Assembly (NCBI RefSeq): GCF_009930815.1
Contig: NZ_CP022222.1
Coordinates: forward strand, 1,282,501 to 1,346,500
Source of the DNA: Bradyrhizobium sp. CCBAU 051011
GTDB lineage: Bacteria; Pseudomonadota; Alphaproteobacteria; Rhizobiales; Xanthobacteraceae
Direction: 5' to 3'
DNA length: 64,000 nt
The notes under the pieces were generated by a model. It did no database searches. It was not told the origin of the DNA and saw only the letters and a program-made list of their open reading frames with translations. This document shows positions 10,623-44,593 of this stretch, one piece after another. Position 1 is the first letter of the stretch; each line of letters begins with the position of its first letter. The translations under genes and the position numbers were made by a program.

Positions 10623-10976
10623 CTATTGCTTCGTCTTGGGCGTGGCTGGGCACGGAAAAGCGTCGAGCAGCGCGACCATGGCCGTTGAACCGGCGGTGTA
10701 GTGACGCGCTTCGGGACGTTCAACCAGACGGCGGGCTATGACATCGGCCACCGACGAAAGCACTACATTGTTAGGAAGGCACACGCCTTTGGGAAGCACA
10801 TCACCACCCTCTCTGAGAGTTACGAGCGCATCGGCAATCCCTGCAGCGTACCCAAGGCAGAACGCCCGATTTCCGCTTTTGCATTTTGCCAGAAGGTCCG
10901 CTCCATCAATGAATTGAGCTTTCGCCACGGTCGCCATTGCAAGCGCGGCGAAGGCTGCGACCATCATTCGGGTCAT
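10623..10976 (-). CDS. Rap1a/Tai-type immunity protein homologue, exported
   Basis: A 117-residue protein from ATG 10976. Residues 1-20 are a signal peptide (MVAAFAALAMATVAKA, cleavage before QF). The mature part has the family pattern: DLLAKCKSG, then RAFCLGYAAGIADAL, a Cys in GVCLPNNV, VADVIARRL, a Pro-Glu-Ala-Arg-His and the closing AFPC. Rap1a and Tai proteins protect against peptidoglycan amidases of type VI secretion, though in Rhizobiales many members occur without an effector. Its partner here is unknown. A broken relative lies just downstream on the same strand. Confidence 0.65.
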   Translation of the reverse strand: MTRMMVAAFAALAMATVAKAQFIDGADLLAKCKSGNRAFCLGYAAGIADALVTLREGGDVLPKGVCLPNNVVLSSVADVIARRLVERPEARHYTAGSTAMVALLDAFPCPATPKTKQ

Positions 10977-11028
10977 TTTGCTTTGGTCCCCCACGTCTGC
11001 ACTATGGTGCCTTCTGTTCCCGACAAGC

Positions 11029-13683: not shown

Positions 13684-14940
13684 TTAGTTCCGGAACAGTG
13701 TCGATTGGCGCGGCGCCGCAAGCGGCGGGTCGATCGCCGTTGGCTGCGGTGGAACTGCTGGGGGACGTGGCGCGGTTGACTTAGGTAGGGAGCGTCGCAC
13801 CAGGGGAGCTGCCGTCGGCGGTTGCACAATGGAAACGGCCGCCTCATGTGGTGTAGATTTTCTCAGCCTGATTTCGATGCGCCGCCTTTGAGCCACGTCG
13901 CCGCCAGATGCTCCGTTCAAGGCAAGGTTCTCGTCCGTATCGATTAGTTGTCCGCCGGACAGAGGGACCAGTTTATAGTTTACAAGTTTCTCCGACTTCC
14001 GCAGCACGCTAACGACGGAGACGGCACGCGCCAGGCCGAGGCCTGCATTGTCAGCCGGGGTCAATTTTCCGATCTCGCTGGCGTTAGTGAGAACGGCGTT
14101 GAGGCCGCGATCGAGGTTCGACGTGCGGGAAACGGTGCGAGCGGGTACGATGCTGCCCGCGCCGGCTGACGCATCGACGACCGTAGAGGTGATCCGTGGG
14201 CCGTAGGCTTGCTCGTCGGTGTGCCCTACAACCTCAACCACATCGACATCATATTGCTTAATTGTTGCAAGGATCTTTTCGAGCGTGGTGGTCATCAGCG
14301 CGTCGCGAAACGCCGGCAGAAGTTCCGCGCTTCCAGTGCGAAAGTAATAACCCTTCTCCTCGCTGAGGCTGATAATGGGCGGATACCGGTTGCCACCACC
14401 GTCGCCCGCGCTCTTCGATGCTCTTGCAGCGAGCTCGGCCGCAGATTGCGGGGTGAGGCTGGTCCGTTCCGCGTCTGGTAGAGAGCGCATTATCGCGCTC
14501 ACGATCTCTGCATCGCGCAGAGCTTTGTGGTGGTCGATGCCGGCCTTCCGCAAGGTATCGGTAGCGGCAGCCTTTTCGCGTAGTTCATTTAACGACGTTC
14601 CTTCTTTGGCTAGCCGGCTTAGAGCCGCCTTGCTATCAACGAGATCCCGCCAATAGGCATCGATAGCGGTAGGGTCTGCGCCAGCCGCCGCGGTGAGCTT
14701 CTCCGCGAGGGAAGTCTCCTTTTTGAGGGCGGCGACCGCGGCAGCATCCCGATCGGCAATCGCTCGCTGGTCTGCGAGTTCCTGCTTCGTCGCCGCTAGC
14801 TTGTCCTGTTCTCTTCTAAGAAAAGTCGCCATCGCGATTAAAAGACAGAAGACGAGGAGCAACATAATCTCCGCCATCGTGAGACCTAGAACGAGGCCCC
14901 GCCGATAGGTAGAGCTTTGGCGATTGATCTGTCCGTCCAT
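13684..14940 (-). CDS. MotB/ZorB-like membrane protein with OmpA-like C-terminal domain
   Basis: A 418-residue inner-membrane protein, last gene of the five-gene operon. Its only membrane helix (about residues 15-40) reads GLTMAEIMLLLVFCLLIAMA, with an acidic Glu near residue 24, where MotB, ExbD and ZorB carry the ion-binding Asp. A coiled coil follows (40-130). The OmpA-like peptidoglycan-binding domain spans about 190-375: YYFRTGSAELLPAFRDAL, DVVEVVGHTDEQAYG, ARAVSVVSVLR and the closing QRRRIEIRLRKS. The tail is Pro-rich. This build matches the stationary subunit of proton-driven motors. The channel-like partner is the next gene upstream, 20 bases away. Confidence 0.8.
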   Translation of the reverse strand: MDGQINRQSSTYRRGLVLGLTMAEIMLLLVFCLLIAMATFLRREQDKLAATKQELADQRAIADRDAAAVAALKKETSLAEKLTAAAGADPTAIDAYWRDLVDSKAALSRLAKEGTSLNELREKAAATDTLRKAGIDHHKALRDAEIVSAIMRSLPDAERTSLTPQSAAELAARASKSAGDGGGNRYPPIISLSEEKGYYFRTGSAELLPAFRDALMTTTLEKILATIKQYDVDVVEVVGHTDEQAYGPRITSTVVDASAGAGSIVPARTVSRTSNLDRGLNAVLTNASEIGKLTPADNAGLGLARAVSVVSVLRKSEKLVNYKLVPLSGGQLIDTDENLALNGASGGDVAQRRRIEIRLRKSTPHEAAVSIVQPPTAAPLVRRSLPKSTAPRPPAVPPQPTAIDPPLAAPRQSTLFRN

Positions 14941-14960
14941 GCGTCAGATACCTCGTTGTC

Positions 14961-16001
14961 CTAGTCGGATCTCTTTTCGCCAGGCGCCGGGCCCCATGGT
15001 CCCGGCTGCACGTCACTGTGGGAACGAAACAGATTGGAAGCTTGGAGCTCCTCAACAAGGCGCGTCATCGCGGCCGCGACGTCTAGCGTGCGATTAAGGC
15101 TCTTGTCGACGGTCTTTTCGTGGGTCTCCGCGCTGGCCTTGAATGAATTCACGGCGCGGGACAGACCCTGAATCGTTGGCGCCAGCTTGATCTCAATTAT
15201 CTGTTCGGGCGTCTGCATCGCCTCGAGCTTGGCGACCATTTTCCGGATCGTCTCGACGGACGCAGCGGCCCCCTTAGAGAGATTCTCCGTCTGCTCCACG
15301 AGCCGGTCCGAGACATCGTCCAGGGCGTCCGATATCCGGTCCACCAAAGCGTCCACCGTGTCACCCGACTTGCGCGAAGTTTCTTCCAAGGGGCGGCTGA
15401 TCTTGCCCGTCATTTGCTCGAGTTCGCCAGCCATGGTCGTGCGCATTTCGGATAACATTGTTTTCATTTCGTCCAGCGCGTCGGCCATCGACTGCTGCGT
15501 CATGCGGCGGAAATACGCGAATTCAAGCACGGTTCCCTCAAGTTCGCGCTTCACCCGTCTGGATGCGTTCGCCAGTTCGAGTCGGGCTGTCGCCTCGACC
15601 TCTACCGGGTCTTGGCGCATCTGATTGAAGAAGATGCGCAGCGCGATCCCCGCGATGGTCGAGGCGATGGCGATACCGAAATTCCGAACGATCGTCTCCG
15701 CTGACCCGTCAGCCGAGAACTGATAGAGCGAGACGGCGAGGCTAGTCAGCGTGAATAGGAAGCCCATGTAGTACAGGTTGTCACCGGCCTGATCGTCCCG
15801 GAGGCGGAGCAACCGGGCGCCCGCCATCAGCGCGGCATATGCGATCATGATCAAGACCGGAATTGACGTGACGAGCAGGGGAGACAAGTCCCTGGTCTTT
15901 GATATCACGATGAAAGTGCAGCCCACGGCGGTAGTTGCGAAGAAGACCACGCCCCCGAGGATGCCGGGCGGTATCCGTGGCCAGGTTGAAATGTTCGACA
16001 C
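14961..16001 (-). CDS. MotA/ExbB/ZorA-like channel protein with long coiled-coil tail
   Basis: A 346-residue protein from GTG 16001, two bases after the previous stop. Four membrane helices occupy about residues 10-130: GGVVFFATTAVGCTFIVISK, LLVTSIPVLIMIAYAALMAG, LYYMGFLFTLTSLAVSLYQF and FGIAIASTIAGIALRIFFNQ. The last two resemble the TM3-TM4 pair of MotA, ExbB and ZorA, with Thr residues facing the pore. Residues 130-330 form a long cytoplasmic coiled coil with heptad-like Glu/Leu spacing (ELEGTVLEFAYF, EQMTGKISRPLEETSRKSGD). ZorA has a similar long cytoplasmic tail. I infer a 5:2 type motor with the OmpA-like protein; sequence similarity to ZorA was not tested. Confidence 0.65.
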   Translation of the reverse strand: MSNISTWPRIPPGILGGVVFFATTAVGCTFIVISKTRDLSPLLVTSIPVLIMIAYAALMAGARLLRLRDDQAGDNLYYMGFLFTLTSLAVSLYQFSADGSAETIVRNFGIAIASTIAGIALRIFFNQMRQDPVEVEATARLELANASRRVKRELEGTVLEFAYFRRMTQQSMADALDEMKTMLSEMRTTMAGELEQMTGKISRPLEETSRKSGDTVDALVDRISDALDDVSDRLVEQTENLSKGAAASVETIRKMVAKLEAMQTPEQIIEIKLAPTIQGLSRAVNSFKASAETHEKTVDKSLNRTLDVAAAMTRLVEELQASNLFRSHSDVQPGPWGPAPGEKRSD

Positions 16002-16003
16002 GT

Positions 16004-16828
16004 CTATGTTCCCTGCAGGCGGTGGATAAAGTCGAGGGTGCCCTTGTTGTCCTTCACCCAGGTCGACCAGAATTCGGCGTGTCGGTTCGCGTCCGGCATC
16101 ACCGACGGTCGGGTGACGTAGTTTATGGTGACGCGGGCGCCGTGGAGATCGGTCCGATACTTTAGATACGCCGGCGATTGCTTGAACCGTTGATATCCGA
16201 GGTCCCCGGCGCGCGGATATTGGCCGTAATCGCGCGTGTATTCGATCATATCCGAGATGACCGTCAGCTTCTTCGGGAGGGTACGGACACGCTCGGACGC
16301 GAAGCGGTCGATCGCAATATCTTGGAGCGCCGCCATTATCGGCGAACTAGCCGCTTTGGCTGATGCAAGGCTGTTGCGGATTGCTTCGGCAGCGGGCTTT
16401 CGGAAGCTCTCGAGCCATCGTGATCGCGCAAGCCGCGGGTTGTCCGTCCATTCACTGAGACCGGTGCCGTCCCCAGGATTACAGCGGGAGAACAGCGCTT
16501 TGCTACGGTTCTGAGGAATGTCGAGCACACGGATCTCGAGGAGATGGTAGGCTGGCAAATTGGAGATAAGATCGTCGAGGATGCCCTGGACCTCTCGCGT
16601 CGTCGCGGCCGGCAGGTCGTCGGACGTATCGACCAAGACAACGGATAGTCCCTCAGGGCCGGAAACGGGGCAATCGCCGCGATCCAACGTGGGTTTCGCC
16701 GGGGCCGAGAACTTGAACCAACCGAATGTGGCGAGCGCGGCGCAGGCAATGAACAGTAGCGCAACCCCGCCAAGTGCAGCGACGCCCATACCGTCCGAAC
16801 CGCGGCGCCTGCGTTTAGACCTTGCCAT
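16004..16828 (-). CDS. Membrane-anchored periplasmic protein with VWA-like domain
   Basis: A 274-residue protein whose start overlaps the end of the preceding gene by 14 bases. A basic N-terminus (RSKRRRRG) and one membrane helix (about residues 15-38, VAALGGVALLFIACAALATF) place the rest in the periplasm. The soluble part begins GLSVVLVDTSDDL, which fits strand 1 and a partial MIDAS metal site of a von Willebrand A domain. KLTVISDMIEYT fits the strand with the later MIDAS Asp. Two Cys residues (DCPVSG and SRCNPG) may form a disulfide. VWA domains usually bind protein partners. A structural role in the motor complex is inference from the operon. Confidence 0.6.
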   Translation of the reverse strand: MARSKRRRRGSDGMGVAALGGVALLFIACAALATFGWFKFSAPAKPTLDRGDCPVSGPEGLSVVLVDTSDDLPAATTREVQGILDDLISNLPAYHLLEIRVLDIPQNRSKALFSRCNPGDGTGLSEWTDNPRLARSRWLESFRKPAAEAIRNSLASAKAASSPIMAALQDIAIDRFASERVRTLPKKLTVISDMIEYTRDYGQYPRAGDLGYQRFKQSPAYLKYRTDLHGARVTINYVTRPSVMPDANRHAEFWSTWVKDNKGTLDFIHRLQGT

Positions 16829-18272
16829 TCGTCGACTCCGGGAACAGCTCGTCTATTTCCCTGTAGGACCTAGCGGCACCGTCGAATGCGGCGTGAATTG
16901 CCTCGACCTGAAGGGCCAGCAATGCCTGGACGTCATCGATGGAGCGCCGCAGTCGCTCGCGCTCCTCCGGATCCCGCCCGGTCTGTTCGATTGGGATCCG
17001 GTCGAGCGTGTACGGCCGGTCAAAATGAGCCGGCGGTGGTGCCGAACGAGCCTTCCGATTCGCCTCTCTGTAAGTCTGCAAAAGGGCGTTCGTAGCCCTT
17101 TCGATCTGCGCCTGATGATCGACGAACCTCTGAGAGAGGCGTCCTCGGGAGTTCAGCAAGGAGTCGTACTCGGAACGACGCACGGCGAGATCTCGCTCAG
17201 CATTATTCATCGCCTCTGCAGCGTCATCCCGGATGCCGCGCAGACGTTCGATCAGTTCGTCCTTGGCATTCCGGTACTTTTCGCTGGCGGCCTGCCAACG
17301 CCGTTCCAGGGCTGTATAGCCAATGTATGGATCGAAGGTCATCAGACCGTCCGCCATCGACGCCACAGAGAAGACAATGCCGATCCCGAACAGCAGCCAC
17401 GACTGAAGTTCGTGCAGAGCGAGCGGGGTTTCAAGCAGGCGACGCAGTGCCTCGCGGTCGACGTCGACGAGAGCATCGGGTGGAATCTCGCGGACATGGG
17501 CGATGGCGAGATTCAGCAGTATCACCAGAGCCAGATATCCGATTAGAGAGCAGGTACCGACTACTTTCAGGACTAAATTGCGGTGGTTGATCAGGCGAAT
17601 GGGAACGAGACCGCAGAAATAGCTGACAAGAATGTTGAATGCCGCAAAGACGAAAGCGACTGACAAGCCGCCGAGAATGCCCCCCTGATTTGATTTCGAG
17701 AGGAAGCCGCCGTTGACCGCGACCTCGAGGACGAACAGAACGGCAAGAAATCCGATCTTGAGAAGCATCTTGCCTGGCGTAGGTAGGCGGGCTGGACGTG
17801 AAATCCGGTGCCGCTTCCGGAAGTCCTCCCGTTCCGCCTCGGACTCGTTGAGGCGGCGGCGTAGCTCGAATAGTTCGTCTCGACCCATCGCAGCCTCAGC
17901 CCCGAAGTCTCCGACGGCTTCCGGTGCTGCCTGACGGATGATGGCGAACCGCTCTTCGAAATTGAGCGAAGTCATCCTCGCGTCGTAGATGTGGAGGTGT
18001 TCCTGATAGATAGAGTGTGCGGTCTGTTTATGGCTCTCGGTGTTCTCAACGATACGGTGCTCTACATCGTCTAGCGCGGTCGCACCGGTATCAGGCCTGC
18101 CGCTGGCGCCCCGCTCGGCGCCCATTTCAGCCAACCGCATGTCTCGGGCAACCCGATCTACGTCCAAGTCCAAGAAGATCTGCGTGGACGGGCGATACGG
18201 GTGCTGTGCCTGTCCGAATAGGTCACGCAGCCGCGAGATCGCCGATTTTCTCTTCGAGGGATTTTCGCTCAT
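16815..18272 (-). CDS. Four-helix membrane protein with cytoplasmic coiled coils
   Basis: A protein of about 485 residues from ATG 18272 (MSENPSKRKSAISRLRDLFG); it starts 13 bases after the nuclease stop. About 170 soluble, charged residues come first, including a helical stretch (ELRRRLNESEAEREDFRKRH). Four membrane helices follow between about 165 and 310: LKIGFLAVLFVLEVAVNGGF, LGGLSVAFVFAAFNILVSYF, VVGTCSLIGYLALVILLNLA and LLFGIGIVFSVASMADGL. The C-terminal 170 residues are a coiled coil (ASEKYRNAKDELIERLRGIR). I recognise no family. The layout suggests a scaffold or signal-transmitting subunit of the membrane complex encoded downstream. Confidence 0.65.
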   Translation of the reverse strand: MSENPSKRKSAISRLRDLFGQAQHPYRPSTQIFLDLDVDRVARDMRLAEMGAERGASGRPDTGATALDDVEHRIVENTESHKQTAHSIYQEHLHIYDARMTSLNFEERFAIIRQAAPEAVGDFGAEAAMGRDELFELRRRLNESEAEREDFRKRHRISRPARLPTPGKMLLKIGFLAVLFVLEVAVNGGFLSKSNQGGILGGLSVAFVFAAFNILVSYFCGLVPIRLINHRNLVLKVVGTCSLIGYLALVILLNLAIAHVREIPPDALVDVDREALRRLLETPLALHELQSWLLFGIGIVFSVASMADGLMTFDPYIGYTALERRWQAASEKYRNAKDELIERLRGIRDDAAEAMNNAERDLAVRRSEYDSLLNSRGRLSQRFVDHQAQIERATNALLQTYREANRKARSAPPPAHFDRPYTLDRIPIEQTGRDPEERERLRRSIDDVQALLALQVEAIHAAFDGAARSYREIDELFPESTNGKV

Positions 18273-18285
18273 TTTCGCTTTGGTG

Positions 18286-19017
18286 TCAGAGTTTGGAGCG
18301 ACGGCACCCAGCCGTCTGAGCCTCGACTTCGCTGCAGAACCAGCGACGCGCCGCACGGTCGGTCATATCCAGACCGTCGTAGAAGCGGCCACCAGGCAGG
18401 TGATAGATGCATGCGGACTTGCTCCGCAAATTGCCTTTGATGGCGCAACCTGGTGCCGGCGCCACCTCGGCACTCGCTCCCGTAAGAAGGCGGCTTGCTG
18501 CGGCTGAGATCGATGTCGCTCTAAGGACGATAGTGTTTCTGGAACGGCTCCGCCAATCCCAAGGGGCGATGAACGAACTGCTCCAGAGCCCTCGTTGGGC
18601 CTCCCGGGCGACATCCTCGTCGGCGACATATAGAGTCGAATAGCGCCGGAATGCCAGAGCCCAACCCTCCTCAACCAGCCATTTTCCGACGTCCTCTCCG
18701 TCCGTGGAACAGGTTGCGAGCATCCGACCGTACCGGTCGACTCCGGAGAACTGGCACGCCCAGACTGTGCCCTCGGAACGCTTTGCCAGGGCGTCTCTCG
18801 CGTGCAGGCCGCACCGAAAGGGCTTTCCCGACGCGTCAAGGCAAGTCTGGTCAGTTTCGGGTGCATCGATGCCCTGCAGCCTGATTTTTTGGCCGTTAAG
18901 GACGACCGTGTCGGCGTCAACGATTTGGGGAATGCCGCGACTTTCGCTTGCCCGCGCGGAACAAGCGAGAACTAGAAATAGTACTGCAATCAGCCAACGC
19001 ACTACATCAACCTCCAT
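18286..19017 (-). CDS. Exported thermonuclease (SNase-like), first gene of the motor operon
   Basis: A 243-residue protein from ATG 19017. Residues 1-27 form a signal peptide (VVRWLIAVLFLVLACSARAS). The staphylococcal nuclease domain keeps its catalytic residues: VDADTVVLNGQKIRLQGIDA with Arg and the following PE, and GVDRYGRMLATC with the second Arg. The C-terminal part (CAIKGNLRSKSACIYHLPGG, RRWFCSEVEAQTAGC) is the small Cys-containing module often found after SNase domains in Rhizobiales. It should degrade nucleic acid outside the cytoplasm. The 13-base gap to the next gene implies shared transcription, which ties an exported nuclease to a membrane motor. Confidence 0.8.
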   Translation of the reverse strand: MEVDVVRWLIAVLFLVLACSARASESRGIPQIVDADTVVLNGQKIRLQGIDAPETDQTCLDASGKPFRCGLHARDALAKRSEGTVWACQFSGVDRYGRMLATCSTDGEDVGKWLVEEGWALAFRRYSTLYVADEDVAREAQRGLWSSSFIAPWDWRSRSRNTIVLRATSISAAASRLLTGASAEVAPAPGCAIKGNLRSKSACIYHLPGGRFYDGLDMTDRAARRWFCSEVEAQTAGCRRSKL

Positions 19018-19498: not shown

Positions 19499-20134
19499 TT
19501 AAGGGATGCGATCGCTTCGTGACGGAAGGTCTGTCGAGCAACCGTCCGACGCGCGGGCGCACATATCCGAGCCATCCCCCCATCCAGCCCACCCAACCTC
19601 GGCGTATACTGTGTTTGGACTAGCTGGAATGTCAGTCGGCTTCTTCCCGGATTTTCCATAAGCGAGCCATTCGGCGTGGGATTTCAGCTTGACGCTGTGC
19701 ACGAAAGCACGAGCTTCCTTGAAGGGACGATACTTTAGCAAGGAGCTCGCGACCGTGCCTGTACCGAGCCAGTCGCCATATCCAACCCAACCCTCATTCA
19801 AATAAGTCTGACGTGGAACCGCCGCGATATCGGTGGGTTTCTTGCCTGACTTGCAGTATAGGTTCCACTCCGCTTCCGATTTCAATCCAAGACCCCGCAC
19901 GAACTCGCGAGCTTTTGTGAAGAGTTGCCAGCGGCCTCGACGGCTGCCGGTCCCGAGCCAATCGCCCCAACCAGACCAACCCGCTCCTGCGTAAGCGCTA
20001 AGGGGATAACTCGGAATGTCGTTGGCGCCGTTCACTCGGGAGGAGTTGGGCACTTTCACCAGTCTTGCCTTCAATACCTGTGACAACATTGCATGGGCTT
20101 TCGTTGCGCATACAGCGTCGAAACCCGTCCGCAA
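19499..20134 (-). pseudogene. INT_rpt (phage-integrase repeat unit) protein fragment
   Basis: Three copies of a repeat of about 60 residues are seen: DIPSYPLSAYAGAGWSGWGD, TDIAAVPRQTYLNEGWVGYG and TDIPASPNTVYAEVGWAGWG, with LGTG and EARAFVHSVKLKSHAEWLAY between them. This is the repeat known as INT_rpt, found in large helicase- or integrase-associated proteins of mobile and defence loci. After the third repeat the frame turns to unrelated residues (GSDMCARASDG), and the N-terminus overlaps a helicase fragment on the other strand. The gene is therefore a fragment with foreign sequence at one or both ends. Confidence 0.6.
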
Positions 20135-20785: not shown

Positions 20786-21127
20786 TGCGTTCGTTTTTGT
20801 TGGATCGCAGTAGCGATACTCCGACCGCAGCCTCAGCGTGGAAGAGTATCTTCCGCAAGTCCCGATGCCGTGTTCGCCCTTCGGCGCAATAGCGGACTAT
20901 CCCCGGACTTGCCTCTTGGAGAGCGGGCTCAATATATCTGGGGGTGTTGCGGCTGGCTTTGAGACCGACGCCGTCGCCGCCCCGTGGAGTCGTATTCCAC
21001 TGGGTAATCCATGGCTTTTCGGTGCACACTGCGTGATCTAGGCTGGAACCATTCCATGTACATTGTAATATTTCCGGCCGGAGCGAAGTGTTGAGCGCTT
21101 TTCCGTGTAAGGACCTTGCGGGATCCC

Positions 21128-23389
21128 ATGGCTACTTGGATTGACCGACCGAATTCGAAAGATGTGCTGGATGCTGCGGAACGCTGGAAGCAGGAGTGCC
21201 TCATTGAGGACGGCAGCTTGTTTTCGCCGGAACGCCGTTGGAGCGCTGCGAATGCCGATAGCTTATGCGACGCCTTCTTGGGTAACCCAATTGCTGGGAG
21301 TGAGAAGTTCATAGACAAATTGGGGCGACAACTAAACAATTCCCCAGCTACTGTTCAGAAGCTCGCGGCAGAATGTTTATGGCTGCTATTTCTATTCGTA
21401 GCCGACAATCAGATGGGAGCAGCCGTTAAGAGAGAGCGCATTACGCGCATTTGGCTGCTGTCCGGAAGTACCGAACCGAAATCCCCATTGCTGTCAGACG
21501 AGGTTCTCTCCGGAATAGCGCATTCTGGAATTGCATTCATGACCAAGGTGCCGGACGAGCTCGGATTTTTGCTGTCGGTCATCAGGGACTTCAAGAAGCA
21601 CTCCCCTAGTGATCGTCAGGAGTTATTGGCCGATGCATGGCGTTTTGGCGATTGGGTCGATAAGCAAGTGGGAAACGACCGTCGCGCATTCAGGCATATG
21701 CTGCTGTATTTGTGCTTTCCAGAACGTTATGAGCGGATCTCGAGTTTGCGGCACAAGCGGAAGATCAGAGAGGCTCTTGAGGACAGACTGCCACCTGCGG
21801 AGCGCAACGAAACGAACCAGAGTCTGCTGGCCACGGATCAGGTCCTCTTAGCGATCCGGCACGGGCTTGAACGGGAATATGCGACAACCGAGCTCGACTT
21901 TTACCGTCCGCCACTTCGAGCTCTTTGGCGGCAGGTCGAGGCAAGCGAAACCCCGGGCTTGGCAGATGAGGTAGGAGAAGGTCGAAATTTTTGGATAGAG
22001 AAGACAATCGTGTCTGGACGCCCGGACCGGGAAAGCGGTGATCACGCAGCCGGCAAGGCACTTTGGTCACCCCAGAAATCGAAGAGCGGCGGAGACATTT
22101 ATGCCAACATGCGTCGGGTCAAGGCGGGTGACGTGGTGTTTCACCTCACAGACAATGAGGCAATTACTGGAGTATCTACTGCTGCCGGAAGTGTCGACGA
22201 CAAGTTCGTTGGCCTGGCCGGTACCGACTGGGAGGGCCCTGGATATCGAGTACAGCTTACGGGATACGCTACACTCGATCCAACTCTTCCACGAGAAGCC
22301 TTCCTCGAAAAGGAGCCCTTCGCGACGGAACTTCGCGAGCTCGCGCTGAGCGGCGCTAAGGGACTATTCTACAATGCGCACCGAGGCTTAAATCAGGGCG
22401 CGTATTTGACGGAGGCTACGCCGACATTACTTTCCGTGATTAGCCGAGCTTACCACGCCCACGCAGGAAAGCCGTTGCCGTTTTCTGAAGAGGTTGCTGC
22501 CCCGATAACCTCTACGCAGAAATTTACTATCGACGATGCTCTGGAGGGACTCTTTCTTGAACGTCAGGAAATTGAACAAATCCTGCTGCTCTGGAATACC
22601 AAGAAGAACATCATCTTGCAGGGCCCGCCCGGTGTAGGAAAGTCGTTTGCGGCCCGCAGATTGGCATATGCCCTTCTGGGCGCTGAGGATCGTGAGCGTT
22701 TGGGCTTTGCACAATTTCATCAGTCATATTCATATGAGGATTTCGTAGAAGGTTACCGCCCCACAGAAATGGGATTCGAACTTCGTGCTGGCAAATTTGT
22801 AGAATTCTGCCGACGTGCTGAAAGCGACCTCGAGAGGCCGTACGTCTTCATCATCGACGAGATCAATCGGGGAAATCTCAGCAAAATCTTTGGCGAACTG
22901 ATGCTGCTGATCGAGAACGATAAGCGCAACCCCGCTTGGGCAATCGCTCTTGCTTCAGGCGCAGTACCCTTCCACGTCCCCGCTAATGTTTATGTAATGG
23001 GGCTCATGAACACCGCTGACCGATCACTCGCGGTTGTTGATTATGCGCTTCGACGTCGGTTTGTTTTTGTTGACCTAAAACCTAAGCTGAGTTCCTCAGC
23101 GTTCAGACTGTGGTTAGGAAAACGAGGTGTGCAGGGACCACTGCTGGGCACCTTGATAAACCGCATTGATGCTCTGAACAAAGAAATTACGGCCGATACT
23201 AGCAACCTCGGGCCCGGCTTCGCCATTGGGCATAGCTTTTTCTGCGCGGGACCTACTGACGAGGAGGACGCTTGGGGCTGGTATAGCCGTGTGATCCGCA
23301 CGGAGATTGCGCCTTTGCTTCGTGAATACTGGTTCGACGCCCCTGATAAAGCAAAGGGGTGGGAGGACCAGCTGCTGGCACCGATATGA
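21128..23389 (+). CDS. mcrB: McrB-like restriction GTPase with EVE-like modified-base reader domain
   Basis: A 753-residue protein; ATG 21128 is chosen, TTG 21116 being possible. The N-terminal 280 residues are a helical specificity region. Residues about 285-395 (NFWIEKTIVSGRP, IYANMRRVKAGDVVFHLTDN, GYRVQLTGYATLD) look like an EVE/PUA-fold domain, which in other systems reads methylated or hydroxymethylated cytosine. The AAA+ motor follows: Walker A GPPGVGKS near 498-505, Walker B VFIIDEINRGN near 572, and the McrB signature MNTADRSLAVVDYALRRRF near 628. McrB-type motors use GTP and call in McrC to cut modified DNA. The last bases overlap the mcrC start (ATGA). Confidence 0.85.
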   Translation: MATWIDRPNSKDVLDAAERWKQECLIEDGSLFSPERRWSAANADSLCDAFLGNPIAGSEKFIDKLGRQLNNSPATVQKLAAECLWLLFLFVADNQMGAAVKRERITRIWLLSGSTEPKSPLLSDEVLSGIAHSGIAFMTKVPDELGFLLSVIRDFKKHSPSDRQELLADAWRFGDWVDKQVGNDRRAFRHMLLYLCFPERYERISSLRHKRKIREALEDRLPPAERNETNQSLLATDQVLLAIRHGLEREYATTELDFYRPPLRALWRQVEASETPGLADEVGEGRNFWIEKTIVSGRPDRESGDHAAGKALWSPQKSKSGGDIYANMRRVKAGDVVFHLTDNEAITGVSTAAGSVDDKFVGLAGTDWEGPGYRVQLTGYATLDPTLPREAFLEKEPFATELRELALSGAKGLFYNAHRGLNQGAYLTEATPTLLSVISRAYHAHAGKPLPFSEEVAAPITSTQKFTIDDALEGLFLERQEIEQILLLWNTKKNIILQGPPGVGKSFAARRLAYALLGAEDRERLGFAQFHQSYSYEDFVEGYRPTEMGFELRAGKFVEFCRRAESDLERPYVFIIDEINRGNLSKIFGELMLLIENDKRNPAWAIALASGAVPFHVPANVYVMGLMNTADRSLAVVDYALRRRFVFVDLKPKLSSSAFRLWLGKRGVQGPLLGTLINRIDALNKEITADTSNLGPGFAIGHSFFCAGPTDEEDAWGWYSRVIRTEIAPLLREYWFDAPDKAKGWEDQLLAPI

Positions 23390-24429
23390 GCACGGCGCAA
23401 TTGATCCCCATCGAGAACATTTATTATCTCTTCTGCTACGCATGGAATCGGTTTGAGCAGGCGCAGCCAATTCCGGTCGGCGCGAGCCCCAGCCCGGATC
23501 TTCCAAACTTGCTCGCGCGTGTGTTGCGTGGCGGACTTGGCGCAGTTCTCCGCCGCGGGCTCGAGCGAACCTATCAGCCATTTGATGATGAGATTGTGAC
23601 TGTTCGGGGTCGAATTGATCTCGCAGCGAGCTTCCGCTTGATCGCACGAAATGGCCGGCGGCTACAGTGCTCGTTTGACGAGTTGAGCCACGACAGTGCC
23701 ATCAATCGAATTTTGAAGGCGTCACTTCTGAGACTGTCACTCGCCTCTACTCTGGATTCTGAACTTGCGAAAGAACTTCGTGCACTCGCGCGGAGGTTTC
23801 CGAATGTAGCTGACATTCAGCTGCGGCGTTCGAGCTTTGCGCGTATTCGGCTTCATCGCAACAATGCCTACTATGATCTGCTGCTAAAGACAGCCGAACT
23901 GGCGTTTGATTGTCTTATACCGCACCCATCCGGTAGAGGATTTGTCTTCAATGACGTGTTGCGCGACGAGAAAAAAATGGCTCGGGTATTTGAGGGGTTC
24001 GTGCGTAACTTCTATCGAGCGGAGCAGCGTACATTCGCCGTGGAACCTCTAAGCTTGATGTGGGATGCGATTCCTCTAACGAGTGGCAATCTGGGGCAGT
24101 TGCCAACGATGAGAGCAGACGTCTTCCTGCGAGCTGAACACCGAAACATCATTATCGATACAAAATACTATGCTGATGCGCTTCAGCGCTATCACGGCCG
24201 GGAGAGCTTTCGCTCTGAAAACCTATATCAGATCTTCAGTTACTTGAAGAACGCTGCTGCTAAACGTCCTGAACTCACTGCGGCGGAAGGCATGTTGCTT
24301 TATCCGGAGGTCCATCAAACTCTGGATGCCTCCTACGTAATCCAAGGCCATCGGACTAGAATAGCAACCGTAGATCTCGCCAGGCCGTGGCCACAGATCG
24401 CAGATCGCATGCTTCAACTCGTGTCCTGA
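23386..24429 (+). CDS. mcrC: McrC-like nuclease subunit
   Basis: A 347-residue protein whose ATG overlaps the mcrB stop, so the two are translationally coupled. The start IPIENIYYLFCYAWNRF is typical of the McrC family. The nuclease core is a PD-(D/E)XK fold: MRADVFL near residue 241 supplies the first Asp and NIIIDTKYY near 255-262 supplies the D-x-K pair. RSENLYQIFSYL follows as in other McrC proteins. McrC binds the McrB hexamer and supplies the cutting activity against modified foreign DNA. Both genes look complete. Confidence 0.85.
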   Translation: MSTAQLIPIENIYYLFCYAWNRFEQAQPIPVGASPSPDLPNLLARVLRGGLGAVLRRGLERTYQPFDDEIVTVRGRIDLAASFRLIARNGRRLQCSFDELSHDSAINRILKASLLRLSLASTLDSELAKELRALARRFPNVADIQLRRSSFARIRLHRNNAYYDLLLKTAELAFDCLIPHPSGRGFVFNDVLRDEKKMARVFEGFVRNFYRAEQRTFAVEPLSLMWDAIPLTSGNLGQLPTMRADVFLRAEHRNIIIDTKYYADALQRYHGRESFRSENLYQIFSYLKNAAAKRPELTAAEGMLLYPEVHQTLDASYVIQGHRTRIATVDLARPWPQIADRMLQLVS

Positions 24430-32054: not shown

Positions 32055-33839
32055 CTACAATAACTGAGGCTTCCTTTTGATTTTCTCGAGTTCCTTCAGC
32101 GCTCTCTCGGCTTGCGGCGGCACTTCGAAATTGACCTTAAGCTCGAAGCTCTTAGCGCCGTTTCTCAGCGCCTCAGTATTTCTACTCCATTGATCCTTCA
32201 GATCCTCCACCATGCGGATTATACCGATTGTTATGCCTCGAAAGGAAACCTTGAGGCCATGAAAAGCAGATGATACGTCGGCAGCGTTCAGGGACCGTTC
32301 GAAATCCAGGAATTTGCGGCAGTTGGAAAAGATCGCGTTCACTGCGGTGAGCAATTTTAGGGCATCTCCAGAAACACCGGGATTGCCCAGAGCGCCCATC
32401 AGGTCCTTCTCGATGCAGGCCGCCATGTTAGTTATCGCTGCGGAAAGATCGGCTGACTCGTCGCCCACCCAATTAACAAATTCACGACCCGTAAACAGTT
32501 TCCTCGGAACAACATCCGCGAGCCCTTCGCAATCGGTCTTTAGCAACTCCAATTGCGACCTCAATAGTTCTTCGACCAGCAGAAACTCCCAGAGTTCTCC
32601 GTGGTTCAAAGCGAGAGAGCGGGCAAGGTCTGTCTCGTGGGCGTATGCAGCGCCAATGTCAGGAGTGTCCTCGCTGTCCTGATTTTGGTCAGGTGAGAGC
32701 AGCGGGATCGCGGCACCACTGCTGATTGCCTTTGGCATCGCCGCCGCTGCCGATGCGAATTGCTCAGAAACGTCAACGCGGGAGCAGTGAATGCGCTCGT
32801 TCAATCCGCTGGCGGACCTGATGTCGATTTCGCCGTACAGGCAAATGGGCAACTGGCGGTTATTCTTAAACCTGCGATCCGGACCGCCCTTACGATTTAG
32901 GTACTGCCAGGTCTCGCCCACCACCATTGTATCACTTGGAGGTGCGCCGTCCTCGATAAAGCGAGTTTGCCTACAGTCAACTTGAATATCGCCATAGCTG
33001 AGGCCAGCAACGTCGCCGTCCACCATCACAAGAATAGCATCCGGCGTCAGATAGACAGTCTCCTTTCCGAGCGGTAGCCGTAGAAACTCCAAATTACTCT
33101 TGACCAGTGGGGGATTTCCTCGGGTAAGCGAAATGCTCTTCCTTTCCACCATCTTACCGGCACCGGCATTGCGTTTCCAATCTGCTTCCTGCTTCTCTAA
33201 AGGAATCCGCCAGACGTTACTGGAACGCGCCAATGCATCGAAAGCGCTTGCTAGAGCCTCGAATCGCCCAAGCTCTTCCGCAGATAGGTCGTAGTCGAGA
33301 GAGATGGCGCTGGATTCGCGCCCGTGAAGCCAGATCGAGCCTAGAATAATCACCGCTCCGGCAGCGCCTAGGAAAGCCGCCGCCGGGGGAACAGAGTATG
33401 CTGAAGCGACAACGATTAATGCAACTAAGGAAAAGATTGCCGATAGAAAAGCAAGCCACATTTTGTATGAGTGCCACCTCGCTAGGCCGGCGTTTATTAC
33501 GCCCGCAATATCGATTGTGGAGTTTGCGACCAATTGTTCGATCGGCGCACTGTCTATTACTGTTGCACTTGGGTCCGTCGTTGCTGGTTCAGGCGCGTCC
33601 ACATCGACATCGTAATGCGTGGGCCGATCTGGTACTGGTGAACTGTCGGTCGAGCCGTAGGGCTTATATGCCGTCCACGAAAGCCCTGATCCAGACAGGC
33701 CAATCGTCGTGCGGGTACCACGCGAACCTACTGTATAGCGAAGGCCGCGCGGACCGAGTGAGACGCTTGCCCCACCTCCGCTCAAGTTCAAACGAACTCC
33801 CGGAATAATTTTAAAGGTCCGACGAAAGCGAAAGCCCAT
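32055..33839 (-). CDS. DUF4236 membrane protein
   Basis: A 594-residue protein. The first 55 residues (MGFRFRRTFKIIPGVRLNLS, GGGASVSLGPRGLRYTVG, GLSGSGLSW) are the DUF4236 domain, a beta-rich N-terminal module of unknown role. Two membrane helices follow at about 120-170 (MWLAFLSAIFSLVALIVVAS and AAFLGAAGAVIILGSIWLHG). The remaining 400 residues are cytoplasmic or periplasmic and include a beta-rich middle (ETVYLTPDAILVMVDGDVAG) and a helical C-terminus. No enzyme motif is seen. It stands alone, divergent from the nuclease gene at 34073. Confidence 0.7.
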   Translation of the reverse strand: MGFRFRRTFKIIPGVRLNLSGGGASVSLGPRGLRYTVGSRGTRTTIGLSGSGLSWTAYKPYGSTDSSPVPDRPTHYDVDVDAPEPATTDPSATVIDSAPIEQLVANSTIDIAGVINAGLARWHSYKMWLAFLSAIFSLVALIVVASAYSVPPAAAFLGAAGAVIILGSIWLHGRESSAISLDYDLSAEELGRFEALASAFDALARSSNVWRIPLEKQEADWKRNAGAGKMVERKSISLTRGNPPLVKSNLEFLRLPLGKETVYLTPDAILVMVDGDVAGLSYGDIQVDCRQTRFIEDGAPPSDTMVVGETWQYLNRKGGPDRRFKNNRQLPICLYGEIDIRSASGLNERIHCSRVDVSEQFASAAAAMPKAISSGAAIPLLSPDQNQDSEDTPDIGAAYAHETDLARSLALNHGELWEFLLVEELLRSQLELLKTDCEGLADVVPRKLFTGREFVNWVGDESADLSAAITNMAACIEKDLMGALGNPGVSGDALKLLTAVNAIFSNCRKFLDFERSLNAADVSSAFHGLKVSFRGITIGIIRMVEDLKDQWSRNTEALRNGAKSFELKVNFEVPPQAERALKELEKIKRKPQLL

Positions 33840-34582: not shown

Positions 34583-34852
34583 GAGCCATTACTCGGCAAA
34601 CAGATCGGATCCCTTGGCCTAAATTTCACTAACGTGCCGTTGTCGTGCAGGGGGCGGACGATAGCTGAGTATTCGCGCGATGGTTTTTCGGTTTCTTACG
34701 CCATCTCCCGTGTGGATCAATGGCTTCCCATAGGAATTTCCCGCTTGATGCAAGATTGTTTCCCATTGCTCGTTCGATGTAGATGCGTGCATTGTTTCCG
34801 CTTGAGCGGCTGCCACAGGACTAGTGGCATGCCGCCGTTGCAGGGGAACAAA

Positions 34853-36259
34853 ATGAACGCATTCCGGAGTTCGTCCAATTTGCGTGCACTCTACGTGATC
34901 CTCTGCCTTGGCCTCATAACGAACGGCGCTGCGCGCGCTGAACCGTCCCTTCCGACGATCGACCCATTCAACAATCGACATGCGCTTGTGATCGGCAATG
35001 GCGCCTACAAAGGATCGCCTCTCAACAATCCGGTTAATGACGCCGCTGATATGGCAGACGCTTTGCGAAGCGTGGGTTTCAAGGTTACTCTTGGAAAGAA
35101 TCTGGATCTTCCGCGGATGCGGCTCACAATCCAGCAATTTGTAAGCTCTTTGCCGAGCGGAGCTGCAGCGTTCATTTTCTATGCAGGGCACGGAGTGCAA
35201 CACGCCGGACAGAACTATCTGCTGCCTGTGGACGCCCTTAGTCTGATTTCCGCGGCTCGCGACCTCGACCGAGCAGCGATTAATGTCGGTGATTTTCTCC
35301 GCGACATCGAAAGTGCGCAGCCGGCTATTACGGTTCTGTTTCTTGACGCATGCAGAAACTCGCCGTTTTCCACGATAAGCGAGATCGGGTCCGGGTTGGC
35401 GCGCACCACTCCGCGGTCAGCAACAAGCGTTGCCGGGCAGGACAAGCCGGTGAACGGACCAAAGCCGAGTCTAGAGGGCGTTTTGATTTCCTACTCAACT
35501 GCTCCCAATGCCGCCGCGGAGGACGGCGCCGGTCGGAATAGTCCGTATACGGCTTACCTCAAACGGCATATTGCCGCGGCTAACACGACGTTGGAAACGG
35601 TTCTAAAGTCCACGCGTACAGGCGTCACAAAGGACACGCGCGGCCGGCAGACGCCTTGGTATGAATCCTCCATCAATGGAGAGTTTTTCCCGGCGGGCAG
35701 CGATCAAATCTCGATCGAAGCGCTGCTTGCTATGTTTTTGCCCGATAAAGATCGAGACTTCATTCCAGACGCAACCTACTCGATGACATGGGATCCAGCA
35801 GTGCGATCTCCTATCAAATGGCAACACGCGGGCATCAGAAGCGGTCCTAATTCGGGGGATGTCAAGTTGGAGACAATGTCTTCGAGTTGGATCGCGCCGT
35901 TCAGCCGCACAGGCGATGTCATCATTACCGTAGATGGCCAGCCAACTCATACGTTTCTCGATCGGACGCGAAAGCCGGTCAGGTGGAAGATAACGATGCT
36001 CGGAGCGCGAAATGGAGCCTTCCTCGTAAACCTGAGCAACGATATCTGGTCGCAAGAGTTTGGAGGGTTTGGTGACAGAAAATTTCTTTCCGAAGAACGC
36101 GCCTGCCGCAAAGACGGGTCCACCGTATACGCGATCAGTCTGCCAGGAAAAATCCCCGCTTGGCTGGCAGAAAGCCGATCGTGCGGCTCAGCCGGTTGTG
36201 GGTATGACTATCAGCTATTTACCGACAAGCGCGAGAAGGTACGGCTCGGCTGTCGGTAA
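34853..36259 (+). CDS. Exported caspase-like (C14) peptidase
   Basis: A 468-residue protein from ATG 34853, with AGGGGAA eight bases upstream. Signal peptide: ALYVILCLGLITNGAARA. The caspase fold covers about residues 40-270: RHALVIGNGAYKGSPLNNPV, the catalytic His in FIFYAGHGVQHAGQNYLLPV near 113, and the catalytic Cys in VLFLDACRNSPF near 166. The C-terminal 190 residues are a separate beta-rich part with several Cys. Secreted caspase-like proteins are widespread in Rhizobiales; most have no known substrate. The export signal argues against an abortive-infection executor of the cytoplasmic type. Confidence 0.8.
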   Translation: MNAFRSSSNLRALYVILCLGLITNGAARAEPSLPTIDPFNNRHALVIGNGAYKGSPLNNPVNDAADMADALRSVGFKVTLGKNLDLPRMRLTIQQFVSSLPSGAAAFIFYAGHGVQHAGQNYLLPVDALSLISAARDLDRAAINVGDFLRDIESAQPAITVLFLDACRNSPFSTISEIGSGLARTTPRSATSVAGQDKPVNGPKPSLEGVLISYSTAPNAAAEDGAGRNSPYTAYLKRHIAAANTTLETVLKSTRTGVTKDTRGRQTPWYESSINGEFFPAGSDQISIEALLAMFLPDKDRDFIPDATYSMTWDPAVRSPIKWQHAGIRSGPNSGDVKLETMSSSWIAPFSRTGDVIITVDGQPTHTFLDRTRKPVRWKITMLGARNGAFLVNLSNDIWSQEFGGFGDRKFLSEERACRKDGSTVYAISLPGKIPAWLAESRSCGSAGCGYDYQLFTDKREKVRLGCR

Positions 36260-44508: not shown

Positions 44509-44593
44509 GCCCCTGTGGCGGAACTGGTAGACGCGCTCGACTCAAAATCGAGTTCCGCAAGGAGTGCTGGTTCGATTCCGGCCAGGGGCACCA
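44509..44593 (+). tRNA. tRNA-Leu (anticodon CAA)
   Basis: An 85-base cloverleaf. The acceptor stem GCCCCTG pairs with CAGGGGC, and A-CCA is encoded. The anticodon stem CTCGA/TCGAG encloses CTCAAAA, giving anticodon CAA, for Leu codon TTG. The T arm has GGTTCGATTCC. A long variable arm, GTTCCGCAAGGAGTGC-like, fits a class II tRNA. It is a possible integration target; foreign-looking remnants lie just downstream. Confidence 0.92.

Follow-up and report, generated by a model that had tools for sequence, protein, structure and literature searches.

A four-gene envelope module with a motor-like pair, a VWA protein and a frequently associated nuclease in Bradyrhizobium and other alphaproteobacteria

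Gene organization

What purpose could be served by a gene cluster in which a motor-like membrane pair and a VWA-domain protein stand next to an exported-looking nuclease? Such a cluster is found at positions 13684..19017 of a 64,000-nucleotide stretch of Bradyrhizobium sp. CCBAU 051011 (contig NZ_CP022222.1); the whole stretch is referred to here as the window and positions are counted within it. An earlier interpretation, made from the sequence without database searches (the sequence-only reading), described this interval as a five-gene operon, and it is this claim that we examined. We find that four of the genes form a recurring unit, accompanied by a frequent and exchangeable nuclease of the SNase family. 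A check of the open reading frames in the interval agrees with the earlier description in positions, strand and gene order: all five are tightly spaced on the minus strand, in the order SNase, four-transmembrane (four-TM) protein, VWA protein, channel and OmpA-like protein.

18286..19002, minus strand: SNase with a C-terminal 'sunset' domain, exported-looking (PF00565 match, sunset match, Shine-Dalgarno spacing)
16815..18272, minus strand: four-TM membrane protein whose N- and C-terminal parts look helical, core gene 1 (four hydrophobic segments)
16004..16828, minus strand: probably periplasmic VWA-domain protein with an N-terminal anchor, core gene 2 (AlphaFold model and Foldseek)
14961..16001, minus strand: MotA/ExbB/ZorA-like channel subunit, predicted to have four TM helices followed by a long helical tail, core gene 3
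13684..14940, minus strand: MotB/OmpA-like partner with one TM helix carrying an invariant Glu24 and a putative peptidoglycan-binding OmpA domain, core gene 4

For the SNase we favour the GTG at 19002 as the start over position 19017, where the sequence-only reading had placed it, because the ATG at 19017 adjoins the Shine-Dalgarno sequence GGAGG. From this GTG the N-terminus reads MRWLIAVLFLVLACSARA followed by SES and resembles a signal peptide by eye. The most likely start of the four-TM gene is the ATG at 18272, 13 bases past the SNase stop; family members align from about this position, and the coding model picked a later start at 18125. For the VWA gene the coding model gives a start at 16789. 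Of the intergenic distances originally proposed, that of 13 bases therefore stands with the ATG at 18272, while those of -14 and 2 hold for the longest VWA frame.

A recurring four-gene core

The set of genes is not a chance arrangement, since the four genes downstream of the SNase recur together in many alphaproteobacteria. We examined 103 loci, consisting of the window, a set of 22 and a set of 80 obtained from a genome scan (some genomes are present in both of the latter sets), and counted the core genes and the SNase by six-frame profile searches. For the SNase these hits were used because the gene calls are wrong at L070 and L097. All four core genes are present at 93 of the 95 loci that contain the channel gene, and at the two incomplete ones (L061 and L090) the contig ends less than 20 bases from the last core match. 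The 95 loci contain near-duplicates and reduce to 81 clusters at 98% identity. Wherever all four genes were called their order is constant (four-TM, VWA, channel, OmpA-like), and this order is kept well beyond the Nitrobacteraceae, the group in which the sequence-only reading had suggested looking for it. The four-gene unit is established by computation.

Within the order, the VWA gene is found in 19 of 297 genomes, with three of the nine genomes of the genus, including that of the window, among those carrying it. Strong channel matches (E at most 4.8e-98) occur in 13 of the 297, and none of these 13 lacks the VWA gene. The channel profile reported 62 of the 297 genomes, of which 49 were discounted as coiled-coil matches only, covering the query from about residue 140 onward with a best E of 3.7e-8. 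The channel is absent from six VWA-positive genomes of the same draw. Among the loci, the four-TM and VWA genes stand alone at eight (L037-L042, L045 and L046), in eight genomes from three families, and no channel relative was found in these genomes. The pair can thus exist without the motor, and in this sample we saw no motor without the pair. The VWA protein had been proposed as an adaptor; that it is a partner of the motor is borne out, and its occurrence without a motor in eight genomes implies that it is not simply a motor adaptor.

Across the phylum, the VWA profile matches 11 of 398 genomes, all from the class to which the window belongs. A large protein set contains 841 relatives of the VWA protein and 1812 of the channel (residues 1-200), with 120 of each listed. 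The scan of named genomes returned 240 encoding places, the best 80 of which were kept for analysis; among these are Bradyrhizobium, Afipia, Beijerinckia, Microvirga, Mesorhizobium, Rhizobium, Sinorhizobium, Devosia, Labrys, Stappia, Tistrella and others, as well as one record titled as a metagenome-assembled genome of Flavobacteriaceae. The four-TM gene is present on 24 plasmid records, and no relative was found in phage records at E 1e-5.

The associated nuclease

Of the five proteins the SNase is the sole one that scores above a Pfam cut-off (PF00565, E = 1.2e-13, 51.9 bits against a cut-off of 21), and its C-terminus matches the 'sunset' domain of NCBIfam (3.2e-8). Asp34, Asp36, Thr37, Arg46, Glu54 and Arg98 are kept in 42/42 associated SNases and Asp51 in 41/42; we take these to be the catalytic positions. 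The original assignment as an exported nuclease is thus upheld as to family, with intact catalytic positions, and export is suggested by the signal-peptide-like N-terminus.

Flanking sequence of 2 kb or more on each side of the core is available for 73 loci; an SNase lies within 2 kb at 35 of them, at 29 within 500 bases, and one further locus has it at 2-6 kb. After merging loci with core DNA at least 80% identical the count is 27 of 46. With 179 SNase genes in 58 genomes (mean 3.1), 0.19 of the 73 loci or 0.12 of the 46 would be expected by chance. The formal tail probabilities are too small because the loci are related, although not enough to matter. The position of the SNase varies: it is upstream or downstream of the core and on either strand.

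A tree of the 42 associated SNases and 37 others drawn from the same set of genomes requires nine label changes, at least seven of which are forced by well-supported branches; these changes may be gains or losses, and some long branches are unreliable. The 37 remain from 40 places picked from the listed ones, of which two proved to be associated and one (L155) gave no row. The window SNase sits in a Bradyrhizobium clade of eight members, all of them associated with a core. The association is repeated and draws on several SNase lineages.

Against a fixed role of the SNase stand the 38 of 73 loci with none within 2 kb, and two of the 58 core-bearing genomes (G250 and G602) in which no SNase match was found anywhere in the genome. 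Nine Rhizobium loci share a common, ordinary-looking neighbourhood without SNase, and of eight annotated plasmid regions five have a thermonuclease beside the core and three, with metabolic neighbours, do not. The fixed five-gene system of the sequence-only reading was therefore dropped in favour of a core of four genes that is often accompanied by an exchangeable nuclease. That reading had also named, as a result that would speak against it, motor genes found mostly without the VWA and nuclease genes; this is not the case for the VWA gene, and for the nuclease it is about half true.

The motor-like pair

The predicted topology of the channel subunit, with four TM helices and a long helical tail, resembles that of MotA, ExbB and ZorA, and Thr84, Ser87, Ser114 and Thr115 in the two inner TM helices are invariant or nearly so in the family alignment. 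When the model of the channel was compared with known structures (VIA-align, 50 rows), 20 entries were ZorA, TolQ, ExbB or PomA, 12 were other natural proteins and 18 were designed; the best-scoring natural chain was a type II ZorA. Sequence comparisons gave no such match. The channel does not match Pfam MotA_ExbB (PF01618), a family matched by seven other proteins of the same genome, and its Pfam matches are only of coiled-coil type. Foldseek and sequence searches returned no significant MotA/ExbB match, full-length searches found only coiled coils, and the TM part, used as a 44-member profile against PDB chains, gave a single chance match. Aligned by hhalign to six MotA/ExbB-type domains of its own genome the channel reaches E = 0.64, comparable to unrelated control pairs (0.46-0.72); the register of this non-significant alignment pairs the two inner helices. 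Against ZorA, the best NCBIfam score is 22.7 with a cut-off of 190 and the PADLOC value is 2.4e-5, both in the tail region only. Kinship with MotA/ExbB/ZorA, as proposed from the sequence alone, is thus supported by topology, polar residues and moderate fold matches and not by sequence significance.

The OmpA/MotB-like label of the partner is weakly supported by sequence: the match to Pfam OmpA is weak (0.0059), that to an NCBIfam MotB family is 4e-8 and below cut-off, and the family profile matches the periplasmic domain of PomB at 7.3e-5. A profile of the TM part found no MotB or ZorB chain in the PDB. The carboxylate in the TM helix is a glutamate, Glu24, in 90/90 sequences; the MotB of the same genome has an aspartate here when aligned by eye. 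His240 (89/90), Thr241 (88/90), Asp242 (88/90) and Arg305 (89/90) are the putative peptidoglycan-binding residues and, judged by motif, are comparable to those that ZorB needs. The window protein has no ZorB match in NCBIfam and a PADLOC ZorB1 value of 0.0086. Among 15 relatives, one (L044:6394-8148) matches NCBIfam ZorB2 with 81.9 bits against a cut-off of 400 (6.7e-23). In PADLOC, whose models carry no cut-offs, one ZorB1 model matches 4/15 (best 5e-26) and one ZorB2 model 2/15 (best 1.4e-27). L044:6394-8148 is the most distant of the OmpA-like relatives and a possible bridge to Zorya II.

The VWA and four-TM proteins

Pfam gives no match for the VWA protein, and against six VWA domains of its own genome hhalign gives E = 0.014. 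Its AlphaFold model (58 rows, pLDDT 86.3) was compared with the PDB using Foldseek, which gave a probability of 1.00, a best E of 5.6e-6 and 81 matches at E <= 0.001; of these, those listed (50) are mostly VWA-type or integrin I domains. Comparison of this model hence confirms the VWA fold that had been proposed for a membrane-anchored protein. Asp67, Asp70, Cys116, Ser162 and Asp193 are invariant in 96/96 sequences, position 69 is Ser or Thr in 96/96 and Cys53 is kept in 93/96. The classic metal-ion-dependent adhesion site (MIDAS) motif is D-x-S-x-S; here the MIDAS-type residues Asp67, Ser/Thr69, Ser162 and Asp193, present in 96/96, form D-x-S/T-D. The N-terminus is basic and is followed by a single predicted helix of TM length (14-41), in which polar residues occur in more than 30% of the rows only at positions 14, 39 and 41, all of them variable. 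By the positive-inside rule the VWA domain is probably periplasmic, and the cysteine pair fits this location.

The four-TM protein had been read as a four-helix coiled-coil protein; four hydrophobic segments and helical-looking ends are indeed seen, and it matches no known family. Searches of 22 members against Pfam gave only scattered matches of coiled-coil type, the best being 2.7e-4 in 2/22. Invariant polar residues lie within the TM segments or close to them, for example Glu183, Asn187, Asn213, Asn254, His259, Arg261 and Asp314. A second MotA-like channel was considered for this protein and rejected: hhalign is not significant and the only match is of tail type, to ZorA3 (0.0091). The alignment to the channel of the module itself (E = 0.078) is read as chance.

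Genomic neighbourhood

A known type of restriction system lies about 2 kb from the SNase on the opposite strand.

21116..24429, plus strand: McrBC-type modification-dependent restriction pair, outside the module (AAA_5, McrBC)

The Pfam matches of this pair are AAA_5 (2.7e-22) and McrBC (6.1e-30), and its NCBIfam matches, McrB (2.8e-96) and McrC (5.1e-97), are both below cut-off. We compared the surroundings of 19 loci (140 of 165 proteins encoded up to 8 kb away, not counting the core and the SNase) with 20 hand-placed 14-kb control regions from the same genomes (140 of 234 proteins). At E <= 1e-20, 42 PADLOC families are matched in the flanks and three in the controls. The commonest family, mad3, is generic, with four matches in flanks and seven in controls. 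Since several PADLOC models match one protein, the excess comes down to about a dozen proteins in the flanks and two in the controls, concentrated at a few loci. In the sample examined, the flanks are richer in defence genes, which together with McrBC in the window agrees with the defence setting suggested earlier.

Ten proteins were checked singly, four of them without a match; this identified Gabija GajAB at L101, PDC-S06 at L051 and, on the far side of the SNase at L091, Shango SngABC. The 25 listed of the 42 flank families include AbiEi/AbiEii, a type II methyltransferase and others, which are assigned to the sample and not to a locus. Neither PADLOC on eight window proteins nor these 25 families contain ZorC, ZorD or ZorE. 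An MmeI-type enzyme, a DUF4011 helicase-nuclease and an HSDR_N protein are encoded at other loci, and on a Sinorhizobium fredii plasmid (NZ_CP024309.1) a DUF4041 gene directly follows the SNase of the module.

Comparison with known systems

The module is most readily compared with the ZorAB motor of Zorya, which, according to PMC11890865, needs its Ser/Thr residues, a TM carboxylate (an aspartate in ZorB) and peptidoglycan-binding residues. Both would combine a channel with a long helical cytoplasmic tail, an OmpA-domain partner, a Ser/Thr ring and peptidoglycan residues, and both have nuclease partners and defence-richer surroundings. In contrast to Zorya, the module proteins scanned stay below the NCBIfam ZorA/ZorB cut-offs and include no ZorC, ZorD or ZorE; the carboxylate is a glutamate and not an aspartate, VWA and four-TM proteins are present, and the nuclease usually found is an SNase that looks exported. 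As judged from models, carboxylate and effectors, the module is outside Zorya, although the peptidoglycan residues agree.

A second relation is suggested by a 2025 survey (PMC12204202), which reports two families of membrane-anchored vWA proteins of unknown function beside TolQ-like motors and proposes them as force transducers; these often have an SHLS motif, or have an ion-binding aspartate in their own helix and no TolR partner. Here too a motor gene of the type driven by the proton-motive force adjoins a gene for a membrane-anchored vWA protein. The VWA helix of the module, however, has no conserved His or Asp and no SHLS motif, a MotB/OmpA-like partner is present, the VWA protein is paired with a four-TM protein (also without the motor) and SNases are nearby. 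With MotAB/PomAB and TolQR/ExbBD the module shares the predicted arrangement of channel and partner, Ser/Thr residues, a TM carboxylate and a peptidoglycan-binding domain; it differs in that the channel model has a long tail and no large TM2-TM3 loop, in the glutamate in place of aspartate and in that no flagellar, TonB or TolA partner is seen beside it.

SNIPE, as described in PMC13190303, is a single membrane-bound GIY-YIG protein whose nuclease faces the cytoplasm and cuts DNA during injection. A nuclease at the membrane is a common trait, and DUF4041, the SNIPE domain, stands beside the SNase in the one plasmid copy mentioned above, whereas the module would be a motor complex with an exported-looking SNase. 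Titles and abstract openings of open-access papers contain no description of this gene set that we could find. The best reading is that the module represents a previously undescribed variant of the motor family driven by the proton-motive force.

Proposed function and alternatives

As described in PMC11890865 and PMC12204202, most of the studied MotAB/ExbBD-type motors have roles in motility, secretion, gliding, nutrient uptake or the stability of the envelope, and ZorAB is the example named for defence. We consider the chances about even that the module is an ion-driven, peptidoglycan-tethered envelope machine of the MotAB/ExbBD/ZorAB kind acting in entry-stage defence against phages or plasmids. 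More specifically, and held only tentatively, it could be a periplasmic machine against phages and plasmids in which a Glu-type motor and the VWA/four-TM pair as sensor detect the breach caused by injection and direct an exchangeable exported nuclease. The purpose is probably entry-stage defence, through interception of incoming DNA.

The 5:2 assembly, the passage of ions through Glu24, the sensing step, export and cutting in the periplasm are all inferred. As fold, topology and conserved residues suggest, several channel subunits would surround the TM helices of an OmpA-like dimer such that Glu24 faces the Ser/Thr ring of the channel and carries the ion. The OmpA domain, as its conserved residues suggest, would grip the peptidoglycan, and we propose that a disturbance of the envelope at the site of DNA injection thereby starts or stalls the motor. 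Motion may then pass via the long cytoplasmic tail and the four-TM/VWA pair, with the VWA domain working in the periplasm. In the least certain step the exported SNase, where present, would cut DNA crossing the periplasm; where it is absent another nuclease or a mechanical action might do the job.

Several other explanations were weighed. As the main rival, the module might instead maintain the envelope or serve adhesion, transmitting motor force via the VWA/four-TM pair onto the outer membrane or wall, with the SNase as a separate neighbour; we regard this as possible, though doubtful. The force transduction proposed for the published vWA proteins (PMC12204202) fits such a role, as do the many loci and two genomes without the nuclease described above (one of the 38 loci has it at 2-6 kb), the metabolic genes around some loci and the SH3-domain proteins near others. 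This role is harder to reconcile with a module that is accessory, patchy within one genus and plasmid-borne, with flanks richer in defence genes than the controls, with the repeated pairing with different SNases and with a VWA helix that has no conserved His or acidic residue of the kind found in the published transducers.

Sequence and Foldseek comparisons fail to link the channel significantly to MotA/ExbB, and a profile comparison stays at the level of the controls. The channel might then not be of MotA type, and the two motor genes might encode a passive scaffold that is tethered to peptidoglycan and has a tail of coiled coil. This appears quite improbable in view of the invariant Ser/Thr residues in two inner TM helices, the acidic residue of the partner at the MotB position, the match of the partner to the MotB family and the fold matches of the channel to ZorA, TolQ and ExbB. 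Least probable is a role in DNA acquisition or scavenging, in which the motor and VWA protein would handle surface DNA while the nuclease either breaks it down as a source of phosphate or prepares it for uptake. An exported-looking SNase with intact residues is in line with it, and on one Microvirga plasmid a gene annotated as the competence protein ComEC lies about 5.4 kb beyond the SNase. On the other hand, the annotated representatives (a minority of the 45 largest neighbour clusters) include no competence gene, a non-specific SNase would destroy the very DNA that is to be taken up, and the core also occurs without SNase.

If the defence reading is correct, DNA would be intercepted in transit, before it reaches the cytoplasm, and the module may be an undescribed way of blocking the entry of foreign DNA. 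It would extend the motor family as well as the known sites at which cells intercept DNA. A natural Glu-driven motor and the cutting of DNA in the periplasm as a means of defence become open to test, and the four-gene order provides a simple search rule for more modules.

Other genes near the module

Between 20 and 40 kb, where the McrBC pair lies, the window is richer in A+T, with about 54-58% G+C compared with mostly 59-66% outside. DNA similarity to three relatives of the same genus (L214-L216) starts at about 45.4 kb, just right of a tRNA-Leu (44509-44593). The fetched stretches of these relatives contain nothing of the left part of the window, so that the variable region could not be delimited on its left side, and the window has no repeat of the tRNA-Leu of at least 14 bases that could mark the attachment site of an island.

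A DUF4236 protein is encoded at 32055-33839 (2.4e-19). A neighbour cluster represented by a DUF4236 protein (L078) occurs at 13 loci, mostly of Mesorhizobium and for example L036, L069, L072, L074 and L078, and in 11 instances directly follows the OmpA-like gene. Another such cluster, whose representative (L096) has SH3 domains, is seen near the module at L096, L110, L114, L119, L126 and L146; at L146 an SH3-domain gene immediately follows the OmpA gene. Just upstream of the SNase and on the same strand, the product of 19499-20134 contains repeats around GWxGWGDWLGTG and matches no Pfam family above cut-off. The window further encodes a caspase-fold Peptidase_C14 protein (34829-36259, 9e-39) and a small Rap1a-type immunity-like protein (10623-10994, 9.2e-16).

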